From contig JANYCW010000051.1 of assembly GCA_025360085.1 (NCBI GenBank), forward strand, positions 1-54,501: DNA of 54,501 nucleotides, in the 5' to 3' direction. Below the pieces are notes generated by a model. The model had not been told where the DNA came from and made no database searches. It was given only the letters and a program-made list of their open reading frames with translations. Position numbers and translations under genes: made by a program. Source of the stretch: Actinomycetes bacterium. Its GTDB lineage: Bacteria; Actinomycetota; Actinomycetes; Nanopelagicales; Nanopelagicaceae. How positions within the stretch are numbered: the stretch's first letter is position 1; every line of letters begins with the position of its first letter. Positions 23,384 to 40,930 of the stretch are shown piece after piece.

Positions 23384-23953
23384 GTGTTTCAAGTACGCAT
23401 ACATGGTCGCGGCGGTCAGGGAGTTGTTACCGCCGCCGAGCTACTCGCGCAAGCGGCTTTTGCTGAAAAACGTTTTGCACAAGCTTTTCCAAGTTTTGGA
23501 TCTGAACGCACTGGCGCTCCTGTAGTCGCGTTTTGTCGTATCTCTGATGCTCACATACGTGTTCGTGAACCCATCATGGCACCCGATGCAGTCATCATTC
23601 AAGATTCAACATTACTAAAACAAATCGATGTATTTGCTGGGTTAAGTGGTGATGGTTATGCGCTCATTAATTCGACAAGAAGTTTTGAGGAGTTATGTAT
23701 TGCCGAAGTTTCACTTCAACGCTCTCGATTCATTACCGTACCCGCAACGGCGATTGCAATGGAGCATTTAGGTCGGCCTGTACCAAACGCCGTATTGCTT
23801 GGTGCCTTTGCCGCGCTGACAAAAGTCGTTTCGCTTCATTCTGTAACCGATGCAATCAACGAGAAATTTAAGCCAAAAATTGCCGCATCAAACTGCGCTG
23901 CAGCTATAGCCGCGTATGAATACGTCTTCGAAATCGTCGCCGCGCATGCTTAA
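23384..23953 (+). CDS. porG: 2-oxoacid:acceptor oxidoreductase, gamma subunit
   Basis: This is the gamma domain of a pyruvate/2-oxoacid ferredoxin oxidoreductase (189 aa). The N terminus carries the family hallmark RIHGRGGQGVVTAAELLAQA (residues 4-23), and further on SFGSERTGAPV, characteristic of PorG-type subunits. The start is GTG at 23384, with GGAG 9 nt upstream. It is the first gene of a four-gene plus-strand operon and overlaps porA. The complex decarboxylates a 2-oxoacid, making acyl-CoA and reducing iron-sulfur clusters. Confidence 0.9.
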   Translation: MFQVRIHGRGGQGVVTAAELLAQAAFAEKRFAQAFPSFGSERTGAPVVAFCRISDAHIRVREPIMAPDAVIIQDSTLLKQIDVFAGLSGDGYALINSTRSFEELCIAEVSLQRSRFITVPATAIAMEHLGRPVPNAVLLGAFAALTKVVSLHSVTDAINEKFKPKIAASNCAAAIAAYEYVFEIVAAHA

Positions 23954-25133
23954 ACAAATCGAAGGCTCTAAAGCCGTTGCCGATGCCGTCGCGGCATGTC
24001 GTCCACAAGTAATTTGCGCATACCCGATTTCACCTCAGACTCACATAGTCGAGGGATTGAGCGTGTTAGTTAAAAATGGGACGTTAGAAAACTGCGAGTT
24101 TATTAACGTAGAATCTGAATTTGCTGCAATGTCGGTAGCAATCGGGGCCAGTGCAACAGGTGCCAGAACTTATACGGCAACGGCTAGCCAAGGCCTTCTC
24201 TATATGGTGGAAGCCGTCTATAACGCTTCAGGGTTCGGGCTTCCAATAGTTATGACGGTTGCCAATCGTGCAATTGGTGCACCGATAAATATCTGGAATG
24301 ATCACAGTGACTCGATGTCTCAACGCGATTCAGGTTGGCTTCAACTCTATGCCGAGACCAATCAAGAGGCTGCAGACTTACATGTTCAAGCATTTAAAAT
24401 TGCTGAAGAGTTATCTCTTCCGGTCATGGTCTGCATGGATGGATTCATCCTGACCCATGCTTATGAGCGCGTAGATGTCCCAGAACAAAGTCACGTTGAC
24501 AGGTTTTTACCCGCCTATATCCCGCGTCAAACCTTGGATCCCGTTAACCCCGTTTCAATCGGTGCGATGGTGGGTCCGGAAACCTTCACGGAAGTTAAGT
24601 ACATGGCGCATATGAAAAACCGGCTCGCTTTAGATGTAATCCCTAAAGTTGCCGCGGATTTTCAAAAGGCTTTTGGTCGAAGCTCAGGTGGTTTAGTACG
24701 TGGCTATAAACTCGAAGGCGCGCAAACTGTGGTCATTGCCCTTGGATCGGTATTAGGAACAATAAAAGATGTCGTTGATGAGATGGTTGCCGCCGAAATC
24801 AAAATTGGAGTTCTAGGCATTATCGCCTTTAGACCCTTTCCAACTCAGGCCGTTAGAAAGGCACTTGCTCATGCAAAACGCGTCATTGTTCTAGAAAAGG
24901 CTTTTCAAGTCGGAATCGGTGGAATAGTTATTGAAAATATTCGCCACGCTTTACGGGGAACTGGCGTTAAGGATTACACAGTGATCGCAGGTCTAGGTGG
25001 GCGCCCAATTACTAAGGACTCACTTCGCAATTTTTTTAATGCGGCATGTAGTGACCAAGTAGATGAATTAACTTTTCTCGATTTAGATCAAGCGTTGGCA
25101 GAGAGTGAAATTTTGCGAGAGGCGGTCAAATAA
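23946..25133 (+). CDS. porA: 2-oxoacid:acceptor oxidoreductase, alpha subunit
   Basis: The alpha subunit (about 395 aa) contains the pyrimidine-binding TPP domain and the CoA-proximal domain. The N-terminal QIEGSKAVADAVAACRPQVI and YPISPQTHIVE are typical of pyruvate-type enzymes. EFAAMSVAIGASATGAR is the cofactor-domain segment, and the Rossmann-like C-terminal domain contains VIALGSVLGTIKDVV. I chose the ATG at 23946, which overlaps the porG stop; an upstream ATG at 23916 is also possible. The stop is followed directly by the porB GTG. Confidence 0.9.
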   Translation: MLKQIEGSKAVADAVAACRPQVICAYPISPQTHIVEGLSVLVKNGTLENCEFINVESEFAAMSVAIGASATGARTYTATASQGLLYMVEAVYNASGFGLPIVMTVANRAIGAPINIWNDHSDSMSQRDSGWLQLYAETNQEAADLHVQAFKIAEELSLPVMVCMDGFILTHAYERVDVPEQSHVDRFLPAYIPRQTLDPVNPVSIGAMVGPETFTEVKYMAHMKNRLALDVIPKVAADFQKAFGRSSGGLVRGYKLEGAQTVVIALGSVLGTIKDVVDEMVAAEIKIGVLGIIAFRPFPTQAVRKALAHAKRVIVLEKAFQVGIGGIVIENIRHALRGTGVKDYTVIAGLGGRPITKDSLRNFFNAACSDQVDELTFLDLDQALAESEILREAVK

Positions 25134-26141
25134 GTGTCCACAACACCCATCAAGTTTTATCAAGTTGGAAGTTTTGCAATTGGAAATCGTCTGCTACCGG
25201 CCCAAGATCGCGCGATTCAATCCGACCCAAATCGCACGAATGCACTTACATCGGGTCACCGTGCATGCCAAGGGTGCGGTGAAGCCCTCGGTGCGCGCTA
25301 CGCACTAGATGCGGCAATGCGCGCTACGAATGAAAAAATTATTGTCGTCAATGCAACGGGATGTTTAGAGGTATTTTCTACGCCTTATCCAGAATCTTCT
25401 TGGCGCCTAGCATGGCTTCACTCACTCTTTGGTAACGCCCCTGCCGTTGCAACCGGTGTTGCCGCAGCCTTAAAGGCGCAGGCTAAAAACGATATTCGCG
25501 TAATTGGTCAAGGCGGAGATGGTGCAACTGTCGATATTGGCTTTGGTGCCTTATCTGGAATGTTTGAGCGAAATGATGATGTCCTCTATATCTGTTATGA
25601 CAACGAGGCTTATATGAATACGGGTGTCCAACGATCGGGTGCAACTCCCCCAGCCGCGCGTACTGCCACAACGCAAGCCGTTGGTACAAACCCGGGCAAT
25701 CTCTTTGGCCAAGGAAAGAACCTGCCACGCATTGCCATGGCCCACGAGATTCCCTATGTTGCAACCGCAACCGTTGCAGACCTGCGCGACTTAGAGGCCA
25801 AAGTTACTCGGGCCATGTCATTTCGCGGTGCCCGTTATATTCACGTTCTGGTGCCCTGCCCACTTGGTTGGGGCTCTGAGTCCTGTGACACGATAAAGAT
25901 TGCGCGCCTTGCTACGCAGTCGGGTTTATTTCCCGTCTTTGAAGCCGAATCTGGTGAAGTAACCTCATCGACCTCGATTCGAAAAATTGTTTCGGTTGAA
26001 GAATACTTAAAACTTCAAACGCGTTATGCACATTTATTTTCCCCCACACGACGCGATGATGTCATAGATCATTTACAGGCCATCGCCGATAAAAATATTG
26101 CACGCTATAACTTAATTTCTGAAGGGAGCGCACATCTCTAA
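25134..26141 (+). CDS. porB: 2-oxoacid:acceptor oxidoreductase, beta subunit (TPP-binding)
   Basis: The 335 aa beta subunit binds TPP-Mg and a [4Fe-4S] cluster. It has HRACQGCGEALGAR near residue 45, where CxxC is part of the cluster site, then NATGCLEVFSTPYPESSW, a form characteristic of the pyruvate enzyme. The TPP motif runs from GQGGDGATVDIGFGAL to DNEAYMNTGVQRSGATPP. It starts with GTG immediately after the porA stop. Pyruvate is the likeliest substrate, but a related 2-oxoacid is possible. Confidence 0.9.
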   Translation: MSTTPIKFYQVGSFAIGNRLLPAQDRAIQSDPNRTNALTSGHRACQGCGEALGARYALDAAMRATNEKIIVVNATGCLEVFSTPYPESSWRLAWLHSLFGNAPAVATGVAAALKAQAKNDIRVIGQGGDGATVDIGFGALSGMFERNDDVLYICYDNEAYMNTGVQRSGATPPAARTATTQAVGTNPGNLFGQGKNLPRIAMAHEIPYVATATVADLRDLEAKVTRAMSFRGARYIHVLVPCPLGWGSESCDTIKIARLATQSGLFPVFEAESGEVTSSTSIRKIVSVEEYLKLQTRYAHLFSPTRRDDVIDHLQAIADKNIARYNLISEGSAHL

Positions 26142-27760
26142 TGGAATATCCCTTTGCAATTACGTTATCTGCTAACTCATCTCTTGCCAATCACACGGGA
26201 TCATGGCGTGTAGAAAAACCTGAGTATGTCCACCGTATGCCGCCGTGTAATAACGCATGCCCTGCGGGTGAGAATATTCAAAACTGGTTATACATCGCCG
26301 AGGATGGCTCATATGAAGCGGCTTGGCGAGCCCTAATTATTGATAATCCATTCCCAGCGATTATGGGTCGTGTGTGTTATCACCCTTGTGAAAGCGTATG
26401 CAATCGCGCCGAATTAGATGAGGCCGTTGGAATTAACTCCATCGAGCGCTTTCTAGGCGATCATGCGATAGAAAAGGGTTGGACAATTCCGGCACCGAGG
26501 GTTGAGAGTGGTTTTAAGGTTTTAGTAATCGGTGCCGGCCCAGCAGGTTTATCTACGGCCTATCACTTACGCAGTATGGGCCACAGCGTGAGAGTTCGCG
26601 ATGCAACACCCGCACCTGGCGGAATGATGCGCTATGGAATTCCAAAATATCGCTTGCCGCGCGAAGTTTTAGATGCTGAGATCAATCGCATTAAGGAAAT
26701 GGGCGTTGTCTTTGAAATGAATACCCGCGTTGATGATGTTCACGACGCACTCGACGAAGGCTATAGCGCGGTGTTTTTAGCAATCGGCGCTCAATTGAGT
26801 AAGCGCGCATATATCCCTGCAAGTGAGAGTGCGCGGATTTTAGATGCAATCAAAGTTTTACATGAAGTCGAAGATGGTAGTCAACCGTTGCTAGGTCGCA
26901 AAGTTGTTGTCTATGGCGGTGGCAATACCGCAATGGATGTTGCACGTACGGCCAAACGGTTAGGAGCCGAAGAAGCGATAATTGTCTACCGTCGCACACG
27001 TGATAAAGCACCGGCCAATGATCAAGAGATTACCGAAGCAATCGAAGAAGGCATTCTGGTTAAGTGGTTATCAACCGTTAAACATGTTGATGAGAAGAAG
27101 CTTCACATTGAAAAAATGGAGTTAGATGAGAATGGATTTCCTCAACCCACAGGTGAGTTTGAAACCCTTGAAGCCGACTCTTTGATTTTGGCGTTGGGTC
27201 AAGAAGTAGACTTCTCACTCCTTGGAAATAGCGCCGATTTAGATACTAAAGATGGTGTAATGCCCGTTGATGCCACGATGATGACTTCACATCCTGGAAT
27301 TTTTGCAGGTGGTGACATGATTCCAGCCGAGCGCACCGTGACAACAAGCATTGGAGCCGGCAAAAAAGCTGCACGCAATATCGATGCTTGGCTTCGCAAA
27401 AAGGCATATGAGAAAATTGAGAACAATGACATTGTCACCTTTGATCAACTCAATACGTGGTACTACACCGATGCACCTCACATAGTCCGTGAGCGTTTGG
27501 AAGCCAGCCGTCGGGCTAAAGATTTTTCTGAAGTCGTTAAAGGTTTGAATGAATCCAATGCGTTGTACGAAGCGCGGCGCTGTCTATCATGCGGCAACTG
27601 TTTTGAGTGCGATAACTGTTTTGGCGTCTGTCCCGAAAATGCCATTATTAAGTTAGGTCCGGGTAAAGGCTTTGAAATAAATTTGGATTACTGCAAGGGT
27701 TGCGGGATCTGCGTGGCCGAGTGTCCGTCGAGCTCGATTATCATGGTGCCCGATAAATAA
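26141..27760 (+). CDS. GltD-like FAD/NAD(P)H oxidoreductase fused to 2[4Fe-4S] ferredoxin domain (PorD-type electron-transfer subunit)
   Basis: This 539 aa protein has three parts. The N-terminal iron-sulfur domain has cysteines in PPCNNACPAGENIQ and GRVCYHPCESVCNRAE. The FAD/NAD(P)H module, as in glutamate synthase small subunit, shows GAGPAGLSTAYHL (about 131-143), then GGGNTAMDVARTAKRLGAEE, and FAGGDM. The C-terminal ferredoxin domain (about 475-535) shows CLSCGNCFECDNCFGVCP and CKGCGICVAECP. The start overlaps the porB stop (TAATG). It replaces a simple PorD ferredoxin subunit and could pass electrons from 2-oxoacid oxidation to NAD(P)+ without free ferredoxin. That role is inference; the domain composition is seen. 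Confidence 0.88.
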   Translation: MEYPFAITLSANSSLANHTGSWRVEKPEYVHRMPPCNNACPAGENIQNWLYIAEDGSYEAAWRALIIDNPFPAIMGRVCYHPCESVCNRAELDEAVGINSIERFLGDHAIEKGWTIPAPRVESGFKVLVIGAGPAGLSTAYHLRSMGHSVRVRDATPAPGGMMRYGIPKYRLPREVLDAEINRIKEMGVVFEMNTRVDDVHDALDEGYSAVFLAIGAQLSKRAYIPASESARILDAIKVLHEVEDGSQPLLGRKVVVYGGGNTAMDVARTAKRLGAEEAIIVYRRTRDKAPANDQEITEAIEEGILVKWLSTVKHVDEKKLHIEKMELDENGFPQPTGEFETLEADSLILALGQEVDFSLLGNSADLDTKDGVMPVDATMMTSHPGIFAGGDMIPAERTVTTSIGAGKKAARNIDAWLRKKAYEKIENNDIVTFDQLNTWYYTDAPHIVRERLEASRRAKDFSEVVKGLNESNALYEARRCLSCGNCFECDNCFGVCPENAIIKLGPGKGFEINLDYCKGCGICVAECPSSSIIMVPDK

Positions 27761-30599: not shown

Positions 30600-32288
30600 C
30601 TAAAGTCGATGTTCTCCATTAACAAAGACATGAAGAAATCTAGAGGTGCTAATCTCACGGGCCACTTGGAAAACAGCAACTCCGTTTGAACCGATAACGA
30701 CTCTTGCAACCTCCTTATCCACCCATTTCCTCGTTGAGGAGTTATTTCTGACATACAGAATGGCCACTTTTCCAGAATCCTCCGGACAGAAATTTGCTTG
30801 AACTTGACCAGTAACGCTCGTGAGTTCGTACGAAAGGGAGGAACAGGTCGTTTGGTCCGGAGAAGTTGCCCCTTGATTTGCCGGCAAACGACTAGAGCTT
30901 TGAACGGATATGACAATTTTATTTGACAACGCGTCAATGTACTGTTCTGAGGCTTTTTTTCGTGCAGTTACGAAGCATGCGCCGACTTGTTTTCCCGTTA
31001 GTACGCCTGTTGGTGTAATCGCGCACACCTGCGACGTTGTTGTACCAAAGGTGAGATCTCCTCTACCAGAGCCACCTGCACTACTTAGTTGAATCTGACT
31101 TCCCACCGTCAATGTAGGAGCAGGTGCATTAATCTCAAGTACAACTTGGGGGAAGCGATAGCCAAAAAGACCCAACTGGTCAGTCAATACAGAGACGCCT
31201 CCATCTATTTCGCGAAAGAAGGCCGCATGCGAATCATTTGGCAAAGAATTGTTATTGGTTTCAGGAATTCTCTGCCAATATGTGCCGAGATCTGACCAGT
31301 ATATCTCAGAATATAAATAGCCTTTTGGCATAGTAATTTTATAGGCCTTTTCAAGGCGATTCAGAACATTTCCAAATTCGTCTACGAGCCCAATCCTTGC
31401 AGCAAAAAATCCTTGTTCATTTTCGGAATCACTACTAAACGAGGAGACAAGAAAAGCTGCGCGCCCTTTGGTTGCACCGCTTGGAACCAAGAGTCTTAAT
31501 TTAGTTGCTCCAAATTGGCCATTGCCACTTGAGGATAAAACCAAATCTCTGTACGCAGTGTTGGGTGCATCTGGAAAATATTCAAAAGTGGCAAAATTCG
31601 TGACAGTAGTGACAGCTGCAATAGATTTTTCCACTACTTCAGGAACCAATGGAGAAATAGTTACTGAATTAATGACATCAGACCCAGCTTGGTAAGTAGA
31701 ATTACCGTTTTGTGAAGCTTTTATTGAACATGTTCCTGCCACAAGAGCATGAATTTTTTGTGAAACTATCCTGCATGTATTTGGAGTTTTACTTGAAAAT
31801 GACACGTCCAAGCCACTCGTCGAACTTGCTGTCAGTAATTGATCACTTCCATTTAAAATCATTGGTGTAAGGGCGTCAAATGTAATCGTCTGGAGAATTA
31901 AAGGATCAGGAACCGTAATATTTAAGGTGTTACTTGGGTTATCTGCTATTGGATTAAATGCCGACGTTGTACCTTGAATTGAAATGGAACCGGCTTGGGC
32001 AGTACCACGAAGATTGACTCTAACTCTTGTCGAATTTACAAATGCGGCCGAATCGAAAGTTAATCCTGTTGCTCCTACATCTACAGTAAAACTGAATTTA
32101 TTAAGATCTGTCGCAAAATTAGTACTGCTGATTAAAATAATTGGATCTAGGGCGCCATTGGCTATATTCGTTGTCGATGAGAAAGCTGGTGTAAGTGCAT
32201 GTGCACTATAAGTGCCAGTCAAGATGTTTAAAATCAAAAATAGTGAAACTGCAAATGCGAACCTCGCGCTTCTCGTCTCCTTTACCAT
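30600..32288 (-). CDS. secreted Ig-like-domain protein (paralogue of 34453-36171)
   Basis: This 562 aa protein of unknown function has a clear signal peptide (basic start, hydrophobic residues 10-28, cleavage after AHA near 32). The mature part is Ser/Thr/Ala-rich beta-sandwich sequence. Two repeated modules resemble bacterial Ig-like domains, each with a Cys pair: TCRIVSQKIHALVAGTCSIK (about 170-190) and VCAITPTGVLTGKQVGACFV (about 412-432). No LPXTG motif or C-terminal membrane helix is seen, so it may be released or held non-covalently. AAGGAG lies 8 nt before the ATG. It is related along its whole length to the second secreted protein. Probable surface or extracellular protein; no enzymatic motif found. 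Confidence 0.75.
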   Translation of the reverse strand: MVKETRSARFAFAVSLFLILNILTGTYSAHALTPAFSSTTNIANGALDPIILISSTNFATDLNKFSFTVDVGATGLTFDSAAFVNSTRVRVNLRGTAQAGSISIQGTTSAFNPIADNPSNTLNITVPDPLILQTITFDALTPMILNGSDQLLTASSTSGLDVSFSSKTPNTCRIVSQKIHALVAGTCSIKASQNGNSTYQAGSDVINSVTISPLVPEVVEKSIAAVTTVTNFATFEYFPDAPNTAYRDLVLSSSGNGQFGATKLRLLVPSGATKGRAAFLVSSFSSDSENEQGFFAARIGLVDEFGNVLNRLEKAYKITMPKGYLYSEIYWSDLGTYWQRIPETNNNSLPNDSHAAFFREIDGGVSVLTDQLGLFGYRFPQVVLEINAPAPTLTVGSQIQLSSAGGSGRGDLTFGTTTSQVCAITPTGVLTGKQVGACFVTARKKASEQYIDALSNKIVISVQSSSRLPANQGATSPDQTTCSSLSYELTSVTGQVQANFCPEDSGKVAILYVRNNSSTRKWVDKEVARVVIGSNGVAVFQVAREISTSRFLHVFVNGEHRL

Positions 32289-32533
32289 GACGCCAACTCC
32301 TTATTTGTTCATTTGGGATTTGAATGAATATGGGTTGATCGTGCTATTAATGTTTAGCCCATAGCGGTCTATGTCCAGTCATACTCAACCCGAAAAGCTA
32401 AGTCTGACCAGACATTGAACTTTCAGCGAAAATGTACTGTTCATTGCGTTTCAGACAATTTTAAATTCTCAAGTCTCATCCGTTAATGAGGTTGTACGTC
32501 TTCTTGAAAATCGTGAACCATGTTGCTTAACGA

Positions 32534-33226
32534 TTACCGCCCGATAAGGCGCAAGAACCCCCAAGAGGTGATTCGTAGGATGGCCTCGAAGGCGATAGCA
32601 AAGGACATTTTGCTTACTCCATGTGCTCGCTCAATAAATGTGATGGGGATTTCGCCCACTGATCCCCCGCGGGCCAGCGCCCGCCGGGTCATCTCAATTT
32701 GGAAGCAGTAGCCCTCACTGTTGATTGTAGATATCTCCACCCGCCGCAAGAGGCCTACATCATAGATTCGAAAACCCGACGTTACGTCTTTGATGCCGAG
32801 GGATAAGAGGAGATTGGCATAAGCGTTGGCGCCTCTTGATAGATACTCGCGGAACTTGCTCCAGTTTTCGATTCCGCCATCTGCCACCCAACGCGAGCCA
32901 ATCAACAGTTCGCTCGTACCAATCCACTCCATCATTCTTGCCAAGTCACTGACTTGATGGGATCCGTCGGCATCCATTTGAATAATACTGTGATAATCGC
33001 GCGCGAGCGCCAGGGCGAAACCGGTTCGATAGGCACTACCCAAACCCAATTTGCCGCTTCGAGAGATCACCTCTACGCCAAACTCTTTGCATATTTCGGC
33101 CGTACCATCGGGTGAACCATCATCGACGACGAGAATATCTACGGGCAGCGCCTTAAGTGCACCCAGCAGCGTCCCGATACTTTCTACCTCGTTATAAGTA
33201 GGAATAACAACAATTGATGTATTCAT
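32534..33226 (-). CDS. GT2 glycosyltransferase, polyprenol-phosphate mannose synthase type
   Basis: This 230 aa GT-A enzyme transfers a sugar from a nucleotide donor to a polyprenyl phosphate on the cytoplasmic membrane face. The family motifs are VVIPTYNEVESI (residues 6-17), ILVVDDGSPDGTAE (31-44), the metal-binding MDADGSH (84-90) and SGFRIY. It lacks the C-terminal membrane domain found in some fusions. Dolichol-phosphate mannose synthase (Dpm1/Ppm1) is the closest well-known type; the actual sugar is not readable. Its start overlaps the xerC stop by 4 nt. Confidence 0.87.
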   Translation of the reverse strand: MNTSIVVIPTYNEVESIGTLLGALKALPVDILVVDDGSPDGTAEICKEFGVEVISRSGKLGLGSAYRTGFALALARDYHSIIQMDADGSHQVSDLARMMEWIGTSELLIGSRWVADGGIENWSKFREYLSRGANAYANLLLSLGIKDVTSGFRIYDVGLLRRVEISTINSEGYCFQIEMTRRALARGGSVGEIPITFIERAHGVSKMSFAIAFEAILRITSWGFLRLIGR

Positions 33227-34137
33227 GCGCGTGGGTGCGCCTGCATAAATACTTTTTGCAAGCGGGCAGGTGATACATGCGTATAAATCTGTGTGGTTGC
33301 AAGAGAGGCATGGCCAAGAATCTCTTGCACCGTACGCAAATCAGCGCCGCCCTCTAACAGGTGTGTAGCCGCTGAATGGCGAAGCCCATGCGGACCCATC
33401 CGCTCAATCCCCTCTATTGCAATGAGCGCTTCATAAACCACGCTTCGTACCGTGCGTGGATCTATTCGTTTACCCCGTGCACCTAAAAAGACGGCTGCTC
33501 CTGATGTCGAGTTAACTAAAGATTGACGAGCATCACTCAACCATTTCTCTAAAGCTTTAACGGCAGGCCTTCCCATCGGGATCACCCGCTCTTTATTTCC
33601 CTTACCTAATACACGAATCGTATTTCTGCTGTAATCGACATCTGGCAGATCTAAGCCGCAGATTTCTCCCACTCGCGCCCCTGTTGCATATAAAAGCTCA
33701 ACCATTGCAACATCACGAATTGCTAATGGCGTTTTCACTTCGCCTGCACGCATAGCCATCGAATCCATCGCCAATTGCGCCTGCCCTGCATCTAAAACAT
33801 GTGGCAATGTGCGATGCCCCTTTGGAATTGCAAGAGACGCGCCAACATCGCTGGTAAGGAAGCCGTTTTTAAAGGCCCATTTGGTAAATAAACGTACCGA
33901 TACGGCCCGCCTCGCAAGCGTTGTTCGCGCTCCTCCTTTTACGCTCTGGTCTGCCAGCCAAGAGCGCAGGTGGGTAAGTTCGAGTTTGGAAACATCACTA
34001 AGCCTAAGTGTTGCTAGGTGGGAAAAAAGCGATTCAAGATCGCCCAAATATGCACGAATTGTGTGGACAGAAAGATTTCGCTCGATTTTTAAGTGCTGTT
34101 CAAAAACTTTTAACACTCTGGCAAATTTCTCATTCAC
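33223..34137 (-). CDS. xerC: tyrosine recombinase XerC
   Basis: This 304 aa tyrosine recombinase is likely the chromosome-dimer resolution enzyme. The N-terminal SAM-like domain spans about residues 1-95. The catalytic set is Arg155 (ATGARVGEI), Lys179 (GKGNKE), His250 and Arg253 (HGLRHS), His276 (GHASLATTQ) and nucleophile Tyr285 (TQIYTHVS). Housekeeping XerC is favoured over an integrase because of its length and because an xerC-like gene commonly lies near rpsB in actinobacteria. It sits at the edge of the accessory region, so a role in local rearrangement cannot be excluded. Confidence 0.9.
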   Translation of the reverse strand: MNEKFARVLKVFEQHLKIERNLSVHTIRAYLGDLESLFSHLATLRLSDVSKLELTHLRSWLADQSVKGGARTTLARRAVSVRLFTKWAFKNGFLTSDVGASLAIPKGHRTLPHVLDAGQAQLAMDSMAMRAGEVKTPLAIRDVAMVELLYATGARVGEICGLDLPDVDYSRNTIRVLGKGNKERVIPMGRPAVKALEKWLSDARQSLVNSTSGAAVFLGARGKRIDPRTVRSVVYEALIAIEGIERMGPHGLRHSAATHLLEGGADLRTVQEILGHASLATTQIYTHVSPARLQKVFMQAHPRA

Positions 34138-34236: not shown

Positions 34237-34456
34237 ATGACGGATCTTGAAGTAAAAATATCAAAAACTATGGAAAATGGCGTTATTTGTCGATAAACTT
34301 GATGCGCGAGAATTTGCTTCCACATACAGACCCTTAAGGTTAGCCAGTCTGGGGGTGTGGGCCCTTGGCAACGAAGTCAGAGAGATATTTTCAAAATTAA
34401 AATGTAGTGACCGTAGTGCAGCTGCCGCCAATTTTCGCAGCTTTCCTAAACCTTAA
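34237..34456 (+). pseudogene. decayed C-terminal fragment of a LuxR-type regulator
   Basis: An ORF of 59 codons (34277-34456) ends with IFSKLKCSDRSAAAANFR. This aligns without gaps to IYSKLSCTSREEAVKIYR in the regulator at 38499-39284, the recognition-helix end of a LuxR-type HTH. A short upstream reading frame at 34237 (MTDLEVKISKT) resembles the first HTH helix region (LTDRQLVILRL) but is in another frame and ends at a stop. No sensor domain or ribosome site is seen. It lies on the same strand as the intact array and overlaps the 3' end of the secreted-protein gene. I read it as a relic; a functional 59 aa peptide is less likely. Confidence 0.45.
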
Positions 34457-36171
34457 ACATCGCTCTCCATTTGAATTACGTGATTGACTAAAACTCGAAC
34501 TCTCTGCCCAGCATTTAACGTCGCGGCGAGTGTAAATTGACCAGCACCGTTAAGATCGAGTTGTGTCACCGAAATCTGTTGCCACACCCAAGTACCGTTC
34601 TTGGCCTTTGTACCTAAAAAAAGATTCGCCTTTTCGTTGGCATATACCGAACATAGGCCAACATCCAAAGTCTGTAATCTATTTAACTTCATAAGAGTGA
34701 GTGAGTGGGCAAAGAATCCGGTATTAACTGAAGCGGCAACTTCTTTTGAGATATTTGAAACTCCTATAATCTCAATAGATATTTGCTTTGAAGAAGTATC
34801 TGCAAAGTTGCCTGAAGCCTCTTTCAAGGCACTAATTTGGCAGTTTCCTTCACTTATTCCACTCACAACGCCTTTTTCTGAAATTGAACAGATTGAGTCG
34901 GAATTGGATTTGTACTTCAATTGTCCAAGACCAGAGCCACCAACGCTCTGTAAGGCGGCTGTGGCTAACACCTTTAGCTTCTCTACGGGAGAGATGACCG
35001 ATAAAGGAACCTGAGGCTTTCGAAAGCCAAAAAGCATGAGATAGTCACTAAAAATTGCAATTCTTCCATCAGTTTCAACGAAATATCCTGCGTGCACAGT
35101 AGATGGAAGCTTCTCCGTTTCAAGTTTTAACAATCGATACCAGCGAATTCCATCATATGACCAGTAAGGAAAACCTTCCTTGGCTCCCATCGGAATATTG
35201 ATTTCAATAGCCTCCTTAAATCGACGAATCGCAGCTCCATCTGCTGTTACTGCGGCAATTCTTGCAATAAAATAACCGGCGGACGTTTCTTCATCGCTAC
35301 TATATGCAGAGATCAAAAAGACAGTTTTGACTTTGGTTGCATGACTAGGAATAAGAAGTTTGACTAGGGTGGCGTTTTCTGGCCTAGTGCCTGCAACTAA
35401 AACTGAAGCATAGCCGCCACCAATTGAATCCGGGTTGTACATAGCAGAACCTAGTGCGGTTGCCACATCAACCAGCTTTGTCTGACTTATTTTTTCGGTT
35501 GGATTTGCAGAAACAACTACTGCTTGCGTGATATCAGGTGCCGGGGCATACTCTTCATTTCCCCGTTGAAAAGCCTTTAAATAACAAGTACCTACGGCGA
35601 CGGCGTGAATTTTTGTAAAATCTATCGTACATACACTAGGCGTATTGCTCATAATTTCAACGTTCAAGAAACTATTCGACGAGACTATTGGTGCCTGATC
35701 CTTTCCAGCAACTATCATCGGGGCAAGTGCTTTAAAAGTAATGAATTGCCCGATTAATGGTGCAACTATAACAATGCTGATCTCGTTACTTGATTCTCCA
35801 CTAGCCGGATCAAAAGCCATAGATTCAGCAGAGATCACAATGGTGCCAGTACTAGCAGTGCCATGAAAGTTAAACCGCAAGTGAGTTGTATCAATAAAAG
35901 CAACGGAGTCATACTTCAAATTAGTTTTACCCGTATTAACACTGAAATCAAACTTATCGACATTCGCTGCAAAGCCCACTCCAACAATTATTGGTGCAGG
36001 ATTCAATGCACCACTTGTAATTGTGGAGGAGGAAGTAATCATCGGAGCAATCGCCCATGCCTGCGGCATAGGAATAATTGATGTTGTAAAGAGCAACAGC
36101 GGTATTAATTGTAAAAAAATCATAATAAACCGGCGCTTTCTGCCGCTTAATTCCTTAGCACTCAATTTCAT
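34453..36171 (-). CDS. secreted Ig-like-domain protein (paralogue of 30600-32288)
   Basis: I choose the ATG at 36171 (572 aa) because AGGAG lies 8 nt upstream and a signal peptide follows at once: KELSGRKRR, then a hydrophobic stretch ending AWAIA. The frame is open further up to 36300, but that extension lacks a ribosome site. The mature protein aligns throughout with the 562 aa paralogue: SGALNPAPIIVGVGFA, a domain with TPSVCTIDFTKIHAVAVGTC, and a later one with SICSISEKGVVSGISEGNCQ. No anchor motif is visible. It is divergent from the regulator array, whose first gene starts 306 nt away. Confidence 0.75.
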   Translation of the reverse strand: MKLSAKELSGRKRRFIMIFLQLIPLLLFTTSIIPMPQAWAIAPMITSSSTITSGALNPAPIIVGVGFAANVDKFDFSVNTGKTNLKYDSVAFIDTTHLRFNFHGTASTGTIVISAESMAFDPASGESSNEISIVIVAPLIGQFITFKALAPMIVAGKDQAPIVSSNSFLNVEIMSNTPSVCTIDFTKIHAVAVGTCYLKAFQRGNEEYAPAPDITQAVVVSANPTEKISQTKLVDVATALGSAMYNPDSIGGGYASVLVAGTRPENATLVKLLIPSHATKVKTVFLISAYSSDEETSAGYFIARIAAVTADGAAIRRFKEAIEINIPMGAKEGFPYWSYDGIRWYRLLKLETEKLPSTVHAGYFVETDGRIAIFSDYLMLFGFRKPQVPLSVISPVEKLKVLATAALQSVGGSGLGQLKYKSNSDSICSISEKGVVSGISEGNCQISALKEASGNFADTSSKQISIEIIGVSNISKEVAASVNTGFFAHSLTLMKLNRLQTLDVGLCSVYANEKANLFLGTKAKNGTWVWQQISVTQLDLNGAGQFTLAATLNAGQRVRVLVNHVIQMESDV

Positions 36172-36412
36172 AATATCAACTCCTGATTGTGATCGCTTGC
36201 GTGATCTGTGTATATGAGTTAATCGCGCTGCTATTCTTTCGACGATACCCTTTAAGGTAATTTTAATGTAAATTCTCGTAGTAAGAGTGAGTGCGCCCAC
36301 TCAACGAAAATACACATACGCAAAAGTGGATTGAAATGTAGGAAGGTTTCAGCAATTCTGCAGACTTTTGGACAAAATCTGAGAGGTGGCACCGACTTCC
36401 TCTTAAGTAAAT

Positions 36413-36440
36413 TTGACTGTACGTTCAATGAAAATATACT
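36413..36440 (+). promoter_or_regulatory. promoter of the first GAF-LuxR gene
   Basis: TTGACT (36413-36418) and TATACT (36435-36440) are separated by 16 nt, close to the housekeeping consensus. Transcription would start near 36447, leaving a leader of about 30 nt before the ATG at 36478. The same 306-nt gap must hold the promoter of the divergent secreted-protein gene. Confidence 0.6.
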
Positions 36441-36477: not shown

Positions 36478-37299
36478 ATGGACCTCCGTGAAGATTATTG
36501 CGCCAATAAATTGAGTGCAATCAGTCCTGCGGGCTCTGGTGTCGCTAAGTATTTAGAAAATATATCTAATTTTGTCACATTTTTAACATATAAGGATCAC
36601 ACACTTCAAGAAATTTTGAACCACTTAAATCTTGTTGTTTTCAAATCACTTCATGTAAGCACAGTTTCATTTCTCCAAGTAAATGAAAATAATGATTTAG
36701 TTGTAGCAGCACGATCAGGTGTTTCAAAAGAGTTGGCGATAAAATTAAAGTCGCTTTATAGCTTGGATGATCGGTATCCTAACGTTGATGCGATTCGAAC
36801 TTTGAGCACCATTTGGATAAATACATTGCCAGATTGGGGTGATGAATATCCATTGATGAAAAATTACCCCCACAGCAAACACGGTAAGACTTTCTTGGCA
36901 ATTCCTGTATTTGTAACTGGCACCCCCGTTGCAGTCATCGCAATATTGAGTAATACTAAAATGTCTCCAGATATCGATACAGATGCATTTTTGAAAGCAA
37001 TTGGACATATTTTGTCAATGTACATGTACCGAAATGTTGTATCTTCACCAGCGGAAGAAGAAAATAGTAGTCGCAGTTCGAATGAAAAGTTGAACGAGGT
37101 TGAAGGTAGCAATCTCACAAATCGCCAACTAATAATTCTACGACTTATTAGTGAGAACCGGACTAATTTGAGCATCTCGCAATTCCTTGGCTATTCTGAG
37201 TCAACAATTCGACAAGAGATTATGAAAATTTTCGCAAAGTTAGGCTGCACTCATCGCAAAGAAGCGGCCATAATATATAGGGGTTACATTTCGCTTTAA
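36478..37299 (+). CDS. GAF-domain LuxR-type transcriptional regulator, copy 1
   Basis: This 273 aa protein has an N-terminal GAF-like sensor (about residues 28-185) and a C-terminal LuxR/GerE-type helix-turn-helix (213-270). The sensor is marked by TLQEILNHLNLVVF, then TLPDWGDEYPLMKNYP and LAIPVFVTGTPVAVIAILS. The HTH reads LTNRQLIILRLISENRTN, then LGYSESTIRQEIMKIFAKLG. There is no receiver domain, so it is not a classical response regulator; the GAF domain probably binds a small ligand. It is the first of five tandem paralogues and is closest to copy 2. The ligand and target genes are unknown. Confidence 0.85.
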   Translation: MDLREDYCANKLSAISPAGSGVAKYLENISNFVTFLTYKDHTLQEILNHLNLVVFKSLHVSTVSFLQVNENNDLVVAARSGVSKELAIKLKSLYSLDDRYPNVDAIRTLSTIWINTLPDWGDEYPLMKNYPHSKHGKTFLAIPVFVTGTPVAVIAILSNTKMSPDIDTDAFLKAIGHILSMYMYRNVVSSPAEEENSSRSSNEKLNEVEGSNLTNRQLIILRLISENRTNLSISQFLGYSESTIRQEIMKIFAKLGCTHRKEAAIIYRGYISL

Positions 37300-37476
37300 T
37301 CAGTTGCGATTCCAGTGAATGTCTCTGAAACTCTTACTTCATCCTTCGCGATAGTCAACAGCAATATTCTGAATCCGTTCGAAGATTATTCAGAATCAAT
37401 GAACCTACAAGAGATTACGACGAAATTTGCCAGATTAAATTGTAAGACACGGAATGAAGTCGCAGGAAACCATTGA
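37300..37476 (+). pseudogene. decayed GAF-LuxR regulator fragment between copies 1 and 2
   Basis: The frame starting at 37303 has no stop until 37476. It begins with AIPVNVSETLTSSFAIVN, matching AIPVFVTGTPVAVIAILS of the copy 1 GAF domain. It ends with YSESMNLQEITTKFARLNC, matching YSESTIRQEIMKIFAKLGC of its HTH, then TRNEVAG before the stop. The intervening sensor end, linker and first HTH helices are missing. This is an internally deleted remnant of another paralogue. No start with a ribosome site is seen, so it is probably not expressed as a working regulator. Confidence 0.6.
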
Positions 37477-37515
37477 GGGTTAATCTTCACCCCCAATGGT
37501 TCTGACCTATAGAAA

Positions 37516-37575
37516 TTGACAATGGTAATTGTCCCGACAAATATCGAGTATTCACGGATGATTTTCGTCTATAAT
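37516..37575 (+). promoter_or_regulatory. promoter region of GAF-LuxR copy 2 with palindrome
   Basis: A perfect TATAAT is at 37570-37575 but has no good -35 at 16-18 nt. Upstream, TTGACA (37516-37521) overlaps an inverted repeat GACAAT-GGTA-ATTGTC (37518-37533). The palindrome is a candidate operator; which start site is used is unclear. Confidence 0.4.
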
Positions 37576-37630
37576 CGGGCTCTGGGTGTCACAATACGGG
37601 CAATATGAAGTTAGGGGAGGTGAACCCGAA

Positions 37631-38383
37631 ATGCCTTTGGGTCATATCTCTGAATTTGTAATTTTTTTGACAAATAAAGATCATACGCTTCAAGAGATAT
37701 TGAACCACTTAAATCGCGTTGTCTTTAGAACTCTCGATGTGAGTTCAGTTTCACTTTCGCAGTTAAATGAAAATAATGAGCTCGTTGTGGCAGCTCGATC
37801 TGGGGTTTCAAAAGAGTCTGTGCTTAATATGCCGTTAACATATAGTTTGGATGACAGGTATCCAAACGTTAATGCGATTAGGACTTTAAGTACTATATGG
37901 ATAGATACATTGCCAGATTGGGGTGACGAATACTTATTAATGAAGAATTACCCCCTTCTAGAACTTAGTAAAACTTACTTGGCAATTCCTATTTTTGTTA
38001 CTGGCACCCCAGTTGCCGTACTCACATTAGTTAGTTCTACCAGAATTGCTCCCAATATCGAGACTGACGCGTTTTTAAAAGCGGTTGGACATATCTTATC
38101 TATGTATATGTATCGAAATGTTTTGTCGTCACCTGAAGAAGAAGTGAGTAATAACAGTTCAGATAAGACTTCGAATTCAACTAAGGGTAATGATCTCACA
38201 GATCGCCAACTGGTAATTCTGCGACTTATTAGTGAGGATCGGACTAATTTAGGCATCTCTCAATTCCTTGGCTATTCCGAGTCAACGATTCGCCAAGAGA
38301 TTATGAAAATTTTCGTAAAGTTAGGCTGTAGTCACCGAAGTGAGGCGGCCAAACTATACCGGAGTTATTCAAGCAAGTCATAA
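37631..38383 (+). CDS. GAF-domain LuxR-type transcriptional regulator, copy 2
   Basis: I start at the ATG at 37631 (250 aa; MPLGHISEFVIFL) because GGGGAGGTG sits 8 nt upstream, the best ribosome site of the array. The frame is open to a GTG at 37586, only about 11 nt after TATAAT. The GAF domain and HTH follow the copy 1 pattern, with TLPDWGDEYLLMKNYP and LTDRQLVILRLISEDRTN. Copies 1 and 2 form one subgroup, sharing KDHTLQEILNHLN and long identical stretches in the HTH-coding DNA. The Ser/Asn-rich linker (about residues 175-195) is the most variable part. Confidence 0.84.
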   Translation: MPLGHISEFVIFLTNKDHTLQEILNHLNRVVFRTLDVSSVSLSQLNENNELVVAARSGVSKESVLNMPLTYSLDDRYPNVNAIRTLSTIWIDTLPDWGDEYLLMKNYPLLELSKTYLAIPIFVTGTPVAVLTLVSSTRIAPNIETDAFLKAVGHILSMYMYRNVLSSPEEEVSNNSSDKTSNSTKGNDLTDRQLVILRLISEDRTNLGISQFLGYSESTIRQEIMKIFVKLGCSHRSEAAKLYRSYSSKS

Positions 38384-38498
38384 ATTAGTACGTAATTGAG
38401 CGGGAGAAGAATCGAAAGCGAGTGTAGTATTCTTGTATGATCCAGCCTCTTCACTTCCTTGAGTATCGTAAATAAATGCAATTATTTTTGTATCTTTC

Positions 38499-39284
38499 AT
38501 GACTAAAATTGCTTTTACTGGCCCCAATTATCTGGATCAGATAACGAAATTCATTGCATTTCTTTCAACGAAGGAAATCACGCTCAATGAGATTTTGAGA
38601 CATATGGTGCTGGTCGTTCTTTCCCCACTAAATGTTGAGGCGATATCTATTCGGCACGTGAATAGTAAAAATCAGGCGGTACGGATTGCAACATGGGGAA
38701 TGCCTTTGGAAATGGTGCAGGCGCCTGGGGATGTCTATAACCTCCATGAGAAATATCCTTCAACTGACACGCTTCGGCTGAGAAGGACTACCTGGATAAA
38801 TACTCTGCCTGACTTTGGCGATGACTATCCACTTCTTAAGGAGTTCCCGTATACCACTGGAGCAAAAACCTTCATCTGTTTTCCTATAGAGAAGGCGGGA
38901 ACGCCGGTGGCTGCTTTAGGAATTTTTAGCAGAGATGTCATTCAACCCAATTCTGAAATAGAATCATTTTTAGCCGCAGTCGGAAGTGTGTTTTCAATGT
39001 ATATGTTTAATCAAGAAGCTAGAGTCCATAAAGTTCAGAAGCTTGGCGGAAAGTTCACACCTCCGAATCTAGAGAACGCTGAGAGTGCCTTAACCGAGCG
39101 CCAAACTGTAATACTTCAACTCATCAGTGAGGATCGAACAAATCTTGCCATAAGTGGGCTTCTGGGTTATTCAGAGTCAACGATTCGTCAGGAGTTGATA
39201 AAAATTTACTCAAAACTAAGTTGCACCAGTCGCGAAGAGGCTGTGAAGATTTACCGACAAAAGTTAGCTAAATCCAATCAATGA
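38499..39284 (+). CDS. GAF-domain LuxR-type transcriptional regulator, copy 3
   Basis: This 261 aa copy is the first member of the second subgroup (copies 3-5). Members share the form YPSTDTLRLRRTTWINTLPD and FICFPIEKAGTPVAALGIFS in the GAF domain. The HTH is LTERQTVILQLISEDRTN with LGYSESTIRQELIKIYSKLS. No good Shine-Dalgarno precedes the ATG. A TATGAT at 38436-38441 might be a -10, but no -35 is convincing. Its stop overlaps the copy 4 start (ATGA), so the two are translationally coupled. Confidence 0.85.
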   Translation: MTKIAFTGPNYLDQITKFIAFLSTKEITLNEILRHMVLVVLSPLNVEAISIRHVNSKNQAVRIATWGMPLEMVQAPGDVYNLHEKYPSTDTLRLRRTTWINTLPDFGDDYPLLKEFPYTTGAKTFICFPIEKAGTPVAALGIFSRDVIQPNSEIESFLAAVGSVFSMYMFNQEARVHKVQKLGGKFTPPNLENAESALTERQTVILQLISEDRTNLAISGLLGYSESTIRQELIKIYSKLSCTSREEAVKIYRQKLAKSNQ

Positions 39285-40066
39285 AACCAAAACCTTCTCC
39301 CCCTAACCTTTATTTAGATATTATCTCAAGGTTCATTGAAGTCCTTTCGAACAACGAACTCACTCTTGATGAGATTTTGAGCCATATTGTGCAGGTCGTT
39401 CTCGCTCCATTAAATGTTGAAGCGCTATTGATAAGGCAGTTAAATGACGAAAATCAAGCGATACTGGTTGCAACATGGGGAATATCATTGGAAGATCTCG
39501 AACCGTATCCTGTGGCTTACAGTCTCAATGATAAATACCCAACAACTGACACTTTGCGATACAGAAGGACCACATGGGTCCAAACTCTGCCAGCTTGGGG
39601 CCCTGAATATCCCCTCCTTAAAGATTTGAAATATAGCTCTGGGGCAAAGAGTTATATCTGTTTTCCAATTGAAAAGGCGGGAACGCCGGTGGCAGCTATA
39701 GGCATCTTTAGCCGAAATATAATTCATCCTAACGCCGAAATTGAGGCATTTTTGAAGACCGTTGGAAGTGTATTTTCGATGCATTTGTTTCGGCAAGATT
39801 CTCAGGCCCATGAACTTTTGGGGATTAGTGAAAGGCACAATTCTTCGGACGTGGGATTTGCCGATAGTGAATTAACTGAACGCCAACTTATAATTTTACG
39901 CCTCATTAGTGAGGACCGAACAAATCTCGCGATTAGTGATCTCATCGGTTATTCAGAGTCAACGATTCGCCAAGAGACAATAAAAATTTACGCAAAGTTG
40001 GAGTGTAACGGCCGCAAAGAGGCTATCAAGATTTATAGACAACGTTTAGCTAAACCGAATAGGTAG
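39281..40066 (+). CDS. GAF-domain LuxR-type transcriptional regulator, copy 4
   Basis: This 261 aa paralogue overlaps copy 3 by 4 nt. Its GAF domain shows NNELTLDEILSHIVQVVLAP and TLPAWGPEYPLLKDLK. The HTH-coding DNA is almost identical to that of copy 5 (39868-40052 against 40729-40912), although the sensor-coding parts differ clearly. Proteins 3 and 4 are probably made from one mRNA and could form heterodimers; that is inference. Confidence 0.85.
   Translation: MKPKPSPPNLYLDIISRFIEVLSNNELTLDEILSHIVQVVLAPLNVEALLIRQLNDENQAILVATWGISLEDLEPYPVAYSLNDKYPTTDTLRYRRTTWVQTLPAWGPEYPLLKDLKYSSGAKSYICFPIEKAGTPVAAIGIFSRNIIHPNAEIEAFLKTVGSVFSMHLFRQDSQAHELLGISERHNSSDVGFADSELTERQLIILRLISEDRTNLAISDLIGYSESTIRQETIKIYAKLECNGRKEAIKIYRQRLAKPNR
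39868..40052 (+). repeat. HTH-coding direct repeat, copy A (in GAF-LuxR 4)
   Basis: This block matches 40729-40912 at a constant offset of 861 nt. I see only three mismatches in about 184 nt: attaac/attgac, caactt/caacat and gctatc/gctacc. Similarity falls sharply upstream, in the linker and GAF coding region. Confidence 0.85.
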
Positions 40067-40132
40067 TCGATACAATTATTATGTGCACGGCCGTCTGTTA
40101 TTTTCCTTAAGTAGCTCGGTTCTAGTATCACG

Positions 40133-40930
40133 GTGTTTTCTGTGACCAATAAGATCATTCCAGTTAAAAATTATTTGGATCATGTTACGGGGTTCATTTC
40201 GTTTCTTTCCAATAACGAACTCAAACTTGAGGAGATCCTGAGTCATATAGTCCAAGTTGTTTTGTCACCCTTAAATGCCGAAGCAATATTTATGTGCCAA
40301 ATTACAAGTGGGAATCAAGTTGAAAGAGTTGGAGCGTGGGGAATGCCTTTGGAGATGTTTCGGGCACAGGGAAACTTTTTCAACCTAAATGATAAATTTC
40401 CTTCAACTGACGCGCTTCGATATAGAAGAACGACATGGGTAAATACCCTGCCGGAGTGGGGCACTGCTTATCCGTTACTCAAAAATCTGCCATATACCAC
40501 CGGAGCAAAGAGTTTCATCTGTTTTCCGATAGAGAAGGCAGGGACGCCAGTAGCAACGTTAGGAGTTTTTAGTCGAGATGAAATTCACCCTAACGCCGAA
40601 ATTGAAGCTTATTTGAAGGCGGTAGGAAGTGTATTTTCTATGTTTATGTTTCGACAAAATTCTAAAGGACTTGAACATCTGAAATTGAAGGGAATGCATC
40701 TTCTCTCTAATGCTGGAAGTGCTGAAACTGAATTGACTGAACGCCAACATATAATTTTACGCCTCATTAGTGAGGACCGAACAAATCTCGCGATTAGTGA
40801 TCTCATCGGTTATTCAGAGTCAACGATTCGCCAAGAGACAATAAAAATTTACGCAAAGTTGGAGTGTAACGGCCGCAAAGAGGCTACCAAGATTTATAGA
40901 CAACGTTTAGCTTATTTCTCCGAGAAATAA
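40133..40930 (+). CDS. GAF-domain LuxR-type transcriptional regulator, copy 5
   Basis: This 265 aa copy begins at GTG 40133, with a second GTG at 40142. TAGTAT at 40123-40128 is a possible -10, which would leave almost no 5' leader; no Shine-Dalgarno is seen. The GAF domain has NNELKLEEILSHIVQVVLSP and TLPEWGTAYPLLKNLP. The HTH is identical in protein sequence to copy 4 over about 55 residues apart from isolated changes. It converges on cimA, with 6 nt between stop codons and no terminator visible. Confidence 0.84.
   Translation: MFSVTNKIIPVKNYLDHVTGFISFLSNNELKLEEILSHIVQVVLSPLNAEAIFMCQITSGNQVERVGAWGMPLEMFRAQGNFFNLNDKFPSTDALRYRRTTWVNTLPEWGTAYPLLKNLPYTTGAKSFICFPIEKAGTPVATLGVFSRDEIHPNAEIEAYLKAVGSVFSMFMFRQNSKGLEHLKLKGMHLLSNAGSAETELTERQHIILRLISEDRTNLAISDLIGYSESTIRQETIKIYAKLECNGRKEATKIYRQRLAYFSEK
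40729..40912 (+). repeat. HTH-coding direct repeat, copy B (in GAF-LuxR 5)
   Basis: Partner of 39868-40052. Even third-codon positions are conserved, which points to recent duplication or gene conversion limited to the DNA-binding domain. Confidence 0.85.

Follow-up and report, generated by a model that had tools for sequence, protein, structure and literature searches.

A variable tandem array of GAF-LuxR regulators and a candidate operator shared with secreted proteins in an actinobacterial genome

What could five similar regulators, kept side by side in one genome, be controlling, and do they form a system of their own? The genomes of acI Actinobacteria are streamlined. The assembly studied here (1.63 Mb, 99.4% complete), whose host genus we infer to be Ca. 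Planktophila of the acI group, carries these five genes within the window, that is, the whole stretch of 54,501 nucleotides that was analysed. Freshwaters around the world hold large numbers of acI Actinobacteria, on which phage exert heavy pressure (PMC10202952). It is at its surface proteins that a cell encounters phage, grazers and particles. We propose, with a probability of roughly 60%, that the array would be the regulatory half of a variable surface module, in which one-component regulators with different sensors would bind a shared operator and control surface proteins as well as themselves.

The five reading frames are all intact and lie on the forward strand between positions 36478 and 40930, as the first-pass annotation had described: copy 1 (36478..37299, 273 aa), its sister copy 2 (37586..38383, 265 aa), copy 3 (38499..39284, 261 aa), copy 4 (39281..40066, 261 aa) and copy 5 (40133..40930, 265 aa). 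The same annotation took copies 3 and 4 to be translationally coupled and separated copies 1-2 from copies 3-5; the frames of copies 3 and 4 do share an ATGA (39281-39284), and the two subgroups are well supported in the tree. The GAF domains of the five copies are only 33-73% identical, too little for the array to be a duplication artefact of the assembly.

At the protein level, the C-terminal GerE/LuxR HTH (PF00196) scores above the Pfam cut-off in all five copies, and for GAF_2 only copy 5 passes the cut-off, copies 1-4 giving weaker matches below it (E 1e-5 to 7e-4). The AlphaFold model of copy 5 (mean pLDDT 85, pTM 0.62) comprises a GAF fold at about residues 12-177, a disordered linker (178-197) and a four-helix HTH (203-264), and solved GAF domains match this model at a TM of about 0.7. 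A domain search for an N-terminal receiver of the NarL/FixJ type gave no match in the five copies, and the NCBIfam NarL matches cover essentially the HTH only and fall far below the cut-off. The single GAF-like sensor without a receiver noted earlier is thus borne out, the GAF match being weak in copies 1-4. GAF and LuxR-type proteins of such architecture are one-component switches. In the structure comparison, full-length TraR, CviR and SdiA also match the copy 5 model, sharing with it the succession of a sensor and a GerE-type HTH. They differ from the present proteins in that the Pfam autoinducer-binding domain (PF03472) has no match in the five copies at E up to 1, and there is no evidence here for homoserine-lactone sensing; membership of the LuxR quorum-sensing receptors was ruled out on the absence of this domain.

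The array occupies a site that varies among relatives. One of its conserved flanks is cimA (citramalate synthase, TIGR00977; 40937..42547, reverse strand); the other is a gene for a xerC/xerD-type tyrosine recombinase (33223..34137, reverse strand), hereafter xerC, which adjoins cimA in empty-site genomes. Among 135 genomes of the genus searched with a threshold of roughly 150 bits or more, 18 have a close family member, and in 16 of these, including the present genome, the contig carries the cimA or the xerC flank. Occupied junctions hold 1 to 5 family members that are convergent to cimA and end 1-6 bp from its stop: one in six genomes (G027, G064, G067, G068, G082, G137), two in five (G024, G060, G100, G139, G150), at least three in G134 and five here, these numbers being minima as contig ends cut into some junctions. 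In many relatives the site is empty, cimA being followed by xerC about 10 bp away (for example in G008, G014, G015, G036, G070 and G073, and at loci L107, L108, L112, L114, L119 and others), and the cimA and xerC reading frames of G062, G065 and G077 overlap. An array unique to this assembly would have weakened the notion of a coherent system; the notion survives that check, with the family at the same junction in 16 genomes of the genus and often linked to secreted proteins. The layout of five copies is not a fixed one: five is the extreme of a number that varies from 0 to 5 among related species. Beyond the genus, the family was found in 12 of the 17 genera of the order at E 1e-15, and it is sparse outside the order.

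An empty site with conserved flanks in relatives is what a genomic island would leave, and one may ask whether the array is a mobile element or the remnant or cargo of a phage. Its AT-richness (GC 0.38-0.42 against about 0.48) and its presence or absence between species are in favour of such an origin, but the variable stretch has no integrase of its own, xerC being a conserved flank that is also found in empty-site genomes, no flanking attachment repeats were seen, and the viral contigs searched contained no relatives of the family. We regard this origin as highly improbable and rejected it, since no tRNA, tandem repeat or Rfam match was found near the array either. As to the junction itself, in G109 (L162, 2060-6400) a shortened regulator and three other genes precede cimA, so that the site accepts other cargo. 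G100 has two differing versions of the junction on separate contigs (L153, L156), which may reflect mixed strains or two loci.

Which genes, then, accompany the regulators? The first-pass annotation placed two secreted Ig-like proteins beside them. This is correct for the first, Ig1 (34453..36300, reverse strand), which adjoins the array and is divergent from it; its true start is likely codon 44, followed by a predicted Sec-type signal peptide. The second, Ig2 (30600..32288, reverse strand), a paralogue of Ig1 with 34% identity, lies further away, past xerC and a glycosyltransferase gene. When a hydrophobic stretch at the N terminus and the composition are taken as the signs of secretion, a large secreted protein divergent from a regulator is found in G024, G027, G064, G130, G150, G082, G068 and the present genome. 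The domains of these proteins vary and include bacterial Ig-like (Big), TIG, pectate-lyase-like adhesive and fn3 domains and InlB-type repeats. In G080, such a secreted protein adjoins cimA and the regulator is absent; in G090, the family sits elsewhere and has two secreted-type proteins (701 and 1,519 aa) as divergent neighbours. Regulators without a secreted neighbour occur in G060, G067, G097, G137 and on one G100 contig.

A candidate for the DNA site linking the two kinds of genes, the palindrome TGWCYRGWCA, first emerged when the divergent regions of close family members were read. Exact matches are present in 22 of 71 regulator-adjacent promoter regions and in 1 of 191 others. In the close set, where the motif originated and whose count is therefore not independent, 7 of 18 regions have one (P 8e-8 against the 1/191). 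The held-out test, on promoter regions beside remoter members of the family that nobody had looked at before, is independent, and here 15 of 53 regions contain the exact motif against 1/191 (P 3e-10). In an unbiased scan of all 3,840 four-base dyads (gaps 0-14), TGAC-N2-GTCA came first (16/71 vs 0/191, P 2e-10), the runner-up reaching P 2e-4.

The sole match among the 191 other promoter regions is the promoter of Ig2. It has a pair of exact candidate operators: TGTCCAGTCA (32372..32381), whose centre is 88 nt upstream of the start of Ig2, and TGACCAGACA (32405..32414), 33 bp from the first and 121 nt upstream of the start; by chance, about 0.007 pairs of sites no more than 50 bp apart would be expected. 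In addition, a one-mismatch candidate, TGTCCCGACA (37530..37539), lies about 50 nt upstream of copy 2. Pattern searches of the present genome returned 15 exact sites (12 genic, one other intergenic and the Ig2 pair) against a control count of 11, which is near chance and shows no enrichment of the 10-mer. What is unusual about these sites is their placement and not their number. In G060, nine of the ten sites are genic and the tenth, the sole intergenic one, precedes that genome's own array; in G015, where the empty site was seen and no family member was found, 10 of 11 sites are genic and one is intergenic, as chance predicts. At Ig2 and in G064, G130, G068 and G263, the distance from a site to the start of the secreted protein downstream is 78-150 nt, and in relatives the sites fall in the promoter region common to the regulator and its divergent secreted protein. 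Pairs spaced by 22-33 bp recur (Ig2, L165, L248 and G097:C109), a spacing at which two dimers would bind the same helical face; the pairs of L163 and L184 are outside this pattern.

Some observations point the other way. The intergenic region between Ig1 and copy 1 has no site with up to one mismatch, and holds only overlapping two-mismatch matches (36414-36427). No exact site is present in about two thirds of the promoter regions next to regulators, which indicates that TGWCYRGWCA is incomplete or specific to a subfamily. Both points weigh against our main reading, as do the near-chance 10-mer counts and the several arrays without a secreted neighbour. A variant, TGACTAGTCA, is seen repeatedly near remoter members of the family (L181, L196, L349) and also precedes a secreted-type protein of 1,527 aa in G064; it is perhaps a subfamily operator.

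These observations also raise the question of whether the regulators mainly govern wider cell-envelope functions such as polysaccharide synthesis and transport, with the secreted proteins nearby for no other reason than that the cimA-xerC junction is a hotspot for insertions. Such an explanation would account for the other genes in the G109 junction and for the cobalt transporter, arabinose isomerase and glycoside hydrolase genes that adjoin distant family members. It also draws on G097, which has no adjacent secreted protein and whose intergenic sites are at genes for rhamnan synthesis, glycosyltransferase, methyltransferase and mannosyltransferase. Nevertheless, we consider it unlikely: the only paired intergenic sites of the present genome are at a secreted protein that lies outside the junction, a secreted protein is repeatedly the divergent partner, and the distance from site to start is similar. 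The sites of G097 suggest that surface polysaccharide genes can also be targets, so that the regulon may extend beyond surface proteins.

If the copies share an operator, do they differ in what they sense? Averaged over alignment columns, conservation within the close family is 0.61 for the GAF domain, 0.74 for the HTH and 0.88 for the recognition helix. Copies 4 and 5 offer a sharper comparison. Their GAF domains are 64% identical with saturated synonymous change (pS 0.65), whereas their HTH segments differ by 2 mismatches in 177 nt (pS 0.03). Furthermore, the GAF domain of copy 5 pairs in the tree with the second copy of G060 (support 100/98), and its HTH is closest to that of copy 4. The HTH-coding segments of the two genes (39875..40051 in copy 4 and 40736..40912 in copy 5, both on the forward strand) were thus homogenised by a recent gene conversion confined to the HTH. 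No HTH-only conversion was found in the other pairs checked, in G024 and G060, and as this is one event we claim no general rule from it. It remains a clear example of how tandem regulators may retain a common target as their inputs diverge. Altogether, the near-invariant recognition helix, the diverged GAF domains, this conversion in one pair and the shared operator motif lend indirect support to a common target and different inputs for the copies.

In another account, a tolerant site would have allowed a tandem expansion into five largely redundant copies that have no separate sensing roles, their number being set by dosage or drift. The variation from 0 to 5 copies among related species agrees with it, and closely related copies and gene conversion are expected under tandem duplication. 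This account seems quite unlikely to us, however, in the face of three observations. In sister copies, pN is far below pS, which is consistent with purifying selection; ordered a-b pairs of regulators are kept in four species (G024, G100, G139, G150); and the counterpart in G060 of the copy 5 GAF domain implies that the copies are old and maintained.

Returning to the proposed surface module, each gene would give a cytoplasmic one-component regulator made of a GAF sensor, a variable linker and a LuxR-type HTH. Dimers would bind the palindrome TGWCYRGWCA in the promoters of both the secreted proteins and the regulators, and the GAF domain would set their activity; the clearest targets here would be the paired sites of Ig2, and the site before copy 2 would be a weaker candidate. 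Since the recognition helix is kept while the sensors diverge, several signals could converge on one operator. The regulators would thus probably switch secreted surface proteins on or off through a short DNA motif. We infer that these proteins bind TGWCYRGWCA, that they activate rather than repress, that each copy responds to a different ligand and that the targets have a role at the surface or in adhesion. More tentatively, and with some doubt on our part, the locus might be a multi-sensor array in which diversified GAF sensors address one operator and remain compatible through conversion confined to the DNA-binding domain, signals being integrated at surface-protein promoters without two-component systems. 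With a named candidate operator and a candidate target, the regulation of a variable surface becomes directly testable.

The first-pass annotation knew of no described system with such a layout. RamA of Corynebacterium glutamicum has a GAF_2 domain and a LuxR-type HTH (PMC7755716). Compared by architecture alone, the proteins described here resemble this other actinobacterial regulator in having a single GAF sensor, a LuxR-type HTH and no receiver, but RamA has been presented as one regulator that acts globally on central metabolism, whereas here we find tandem multi-copy arrays, a variable locus and a short palindromic motif. RamA is also the regulator of cspB. The title of Hansmeier et al. 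2006 (cited in PMC12337289) reports LuxR-type activation of the S-layer gene cspB, located in a 6 kb genomic island. To the extent that this title conveys it, a LuxR-type regulator controlling a surface-protein gene on a genomic island is common to both cases; here, in contrast, the regulator genes themselves, up to five of them, are in the variable stretch and are divergent from varied Ig-like proteins. These precedents make the proposed function plausible and lower its novelty, as both the architecture and the control of surface genes had been described. The arrangement itself, in which up to five GAF-LuxR regulators stand in tandem, occupy a variable junction and share an operator, did not turn up in the literature searched. 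The search returned no acI system of this kind either, an absence that is not proof.

Finally, two observations concern the surroundings of the array. In relatives, about 120-220 bp separate the glycosyltransferase gene from rpsB; here Ig2 is inserted in this interval, and its site is a second variable spot beside the array. Further away, between frr and pyrH, lies an operon (23384-27760) that resembles, as named by reading its sequence, a 2-oxoacid:ferredoxin oxidoreductase together with a GltD-like protein. The frr and pyrH genes stand next to each other in several relatives (L107, L108, L112), and part of this operon is also present in G097 (L155).
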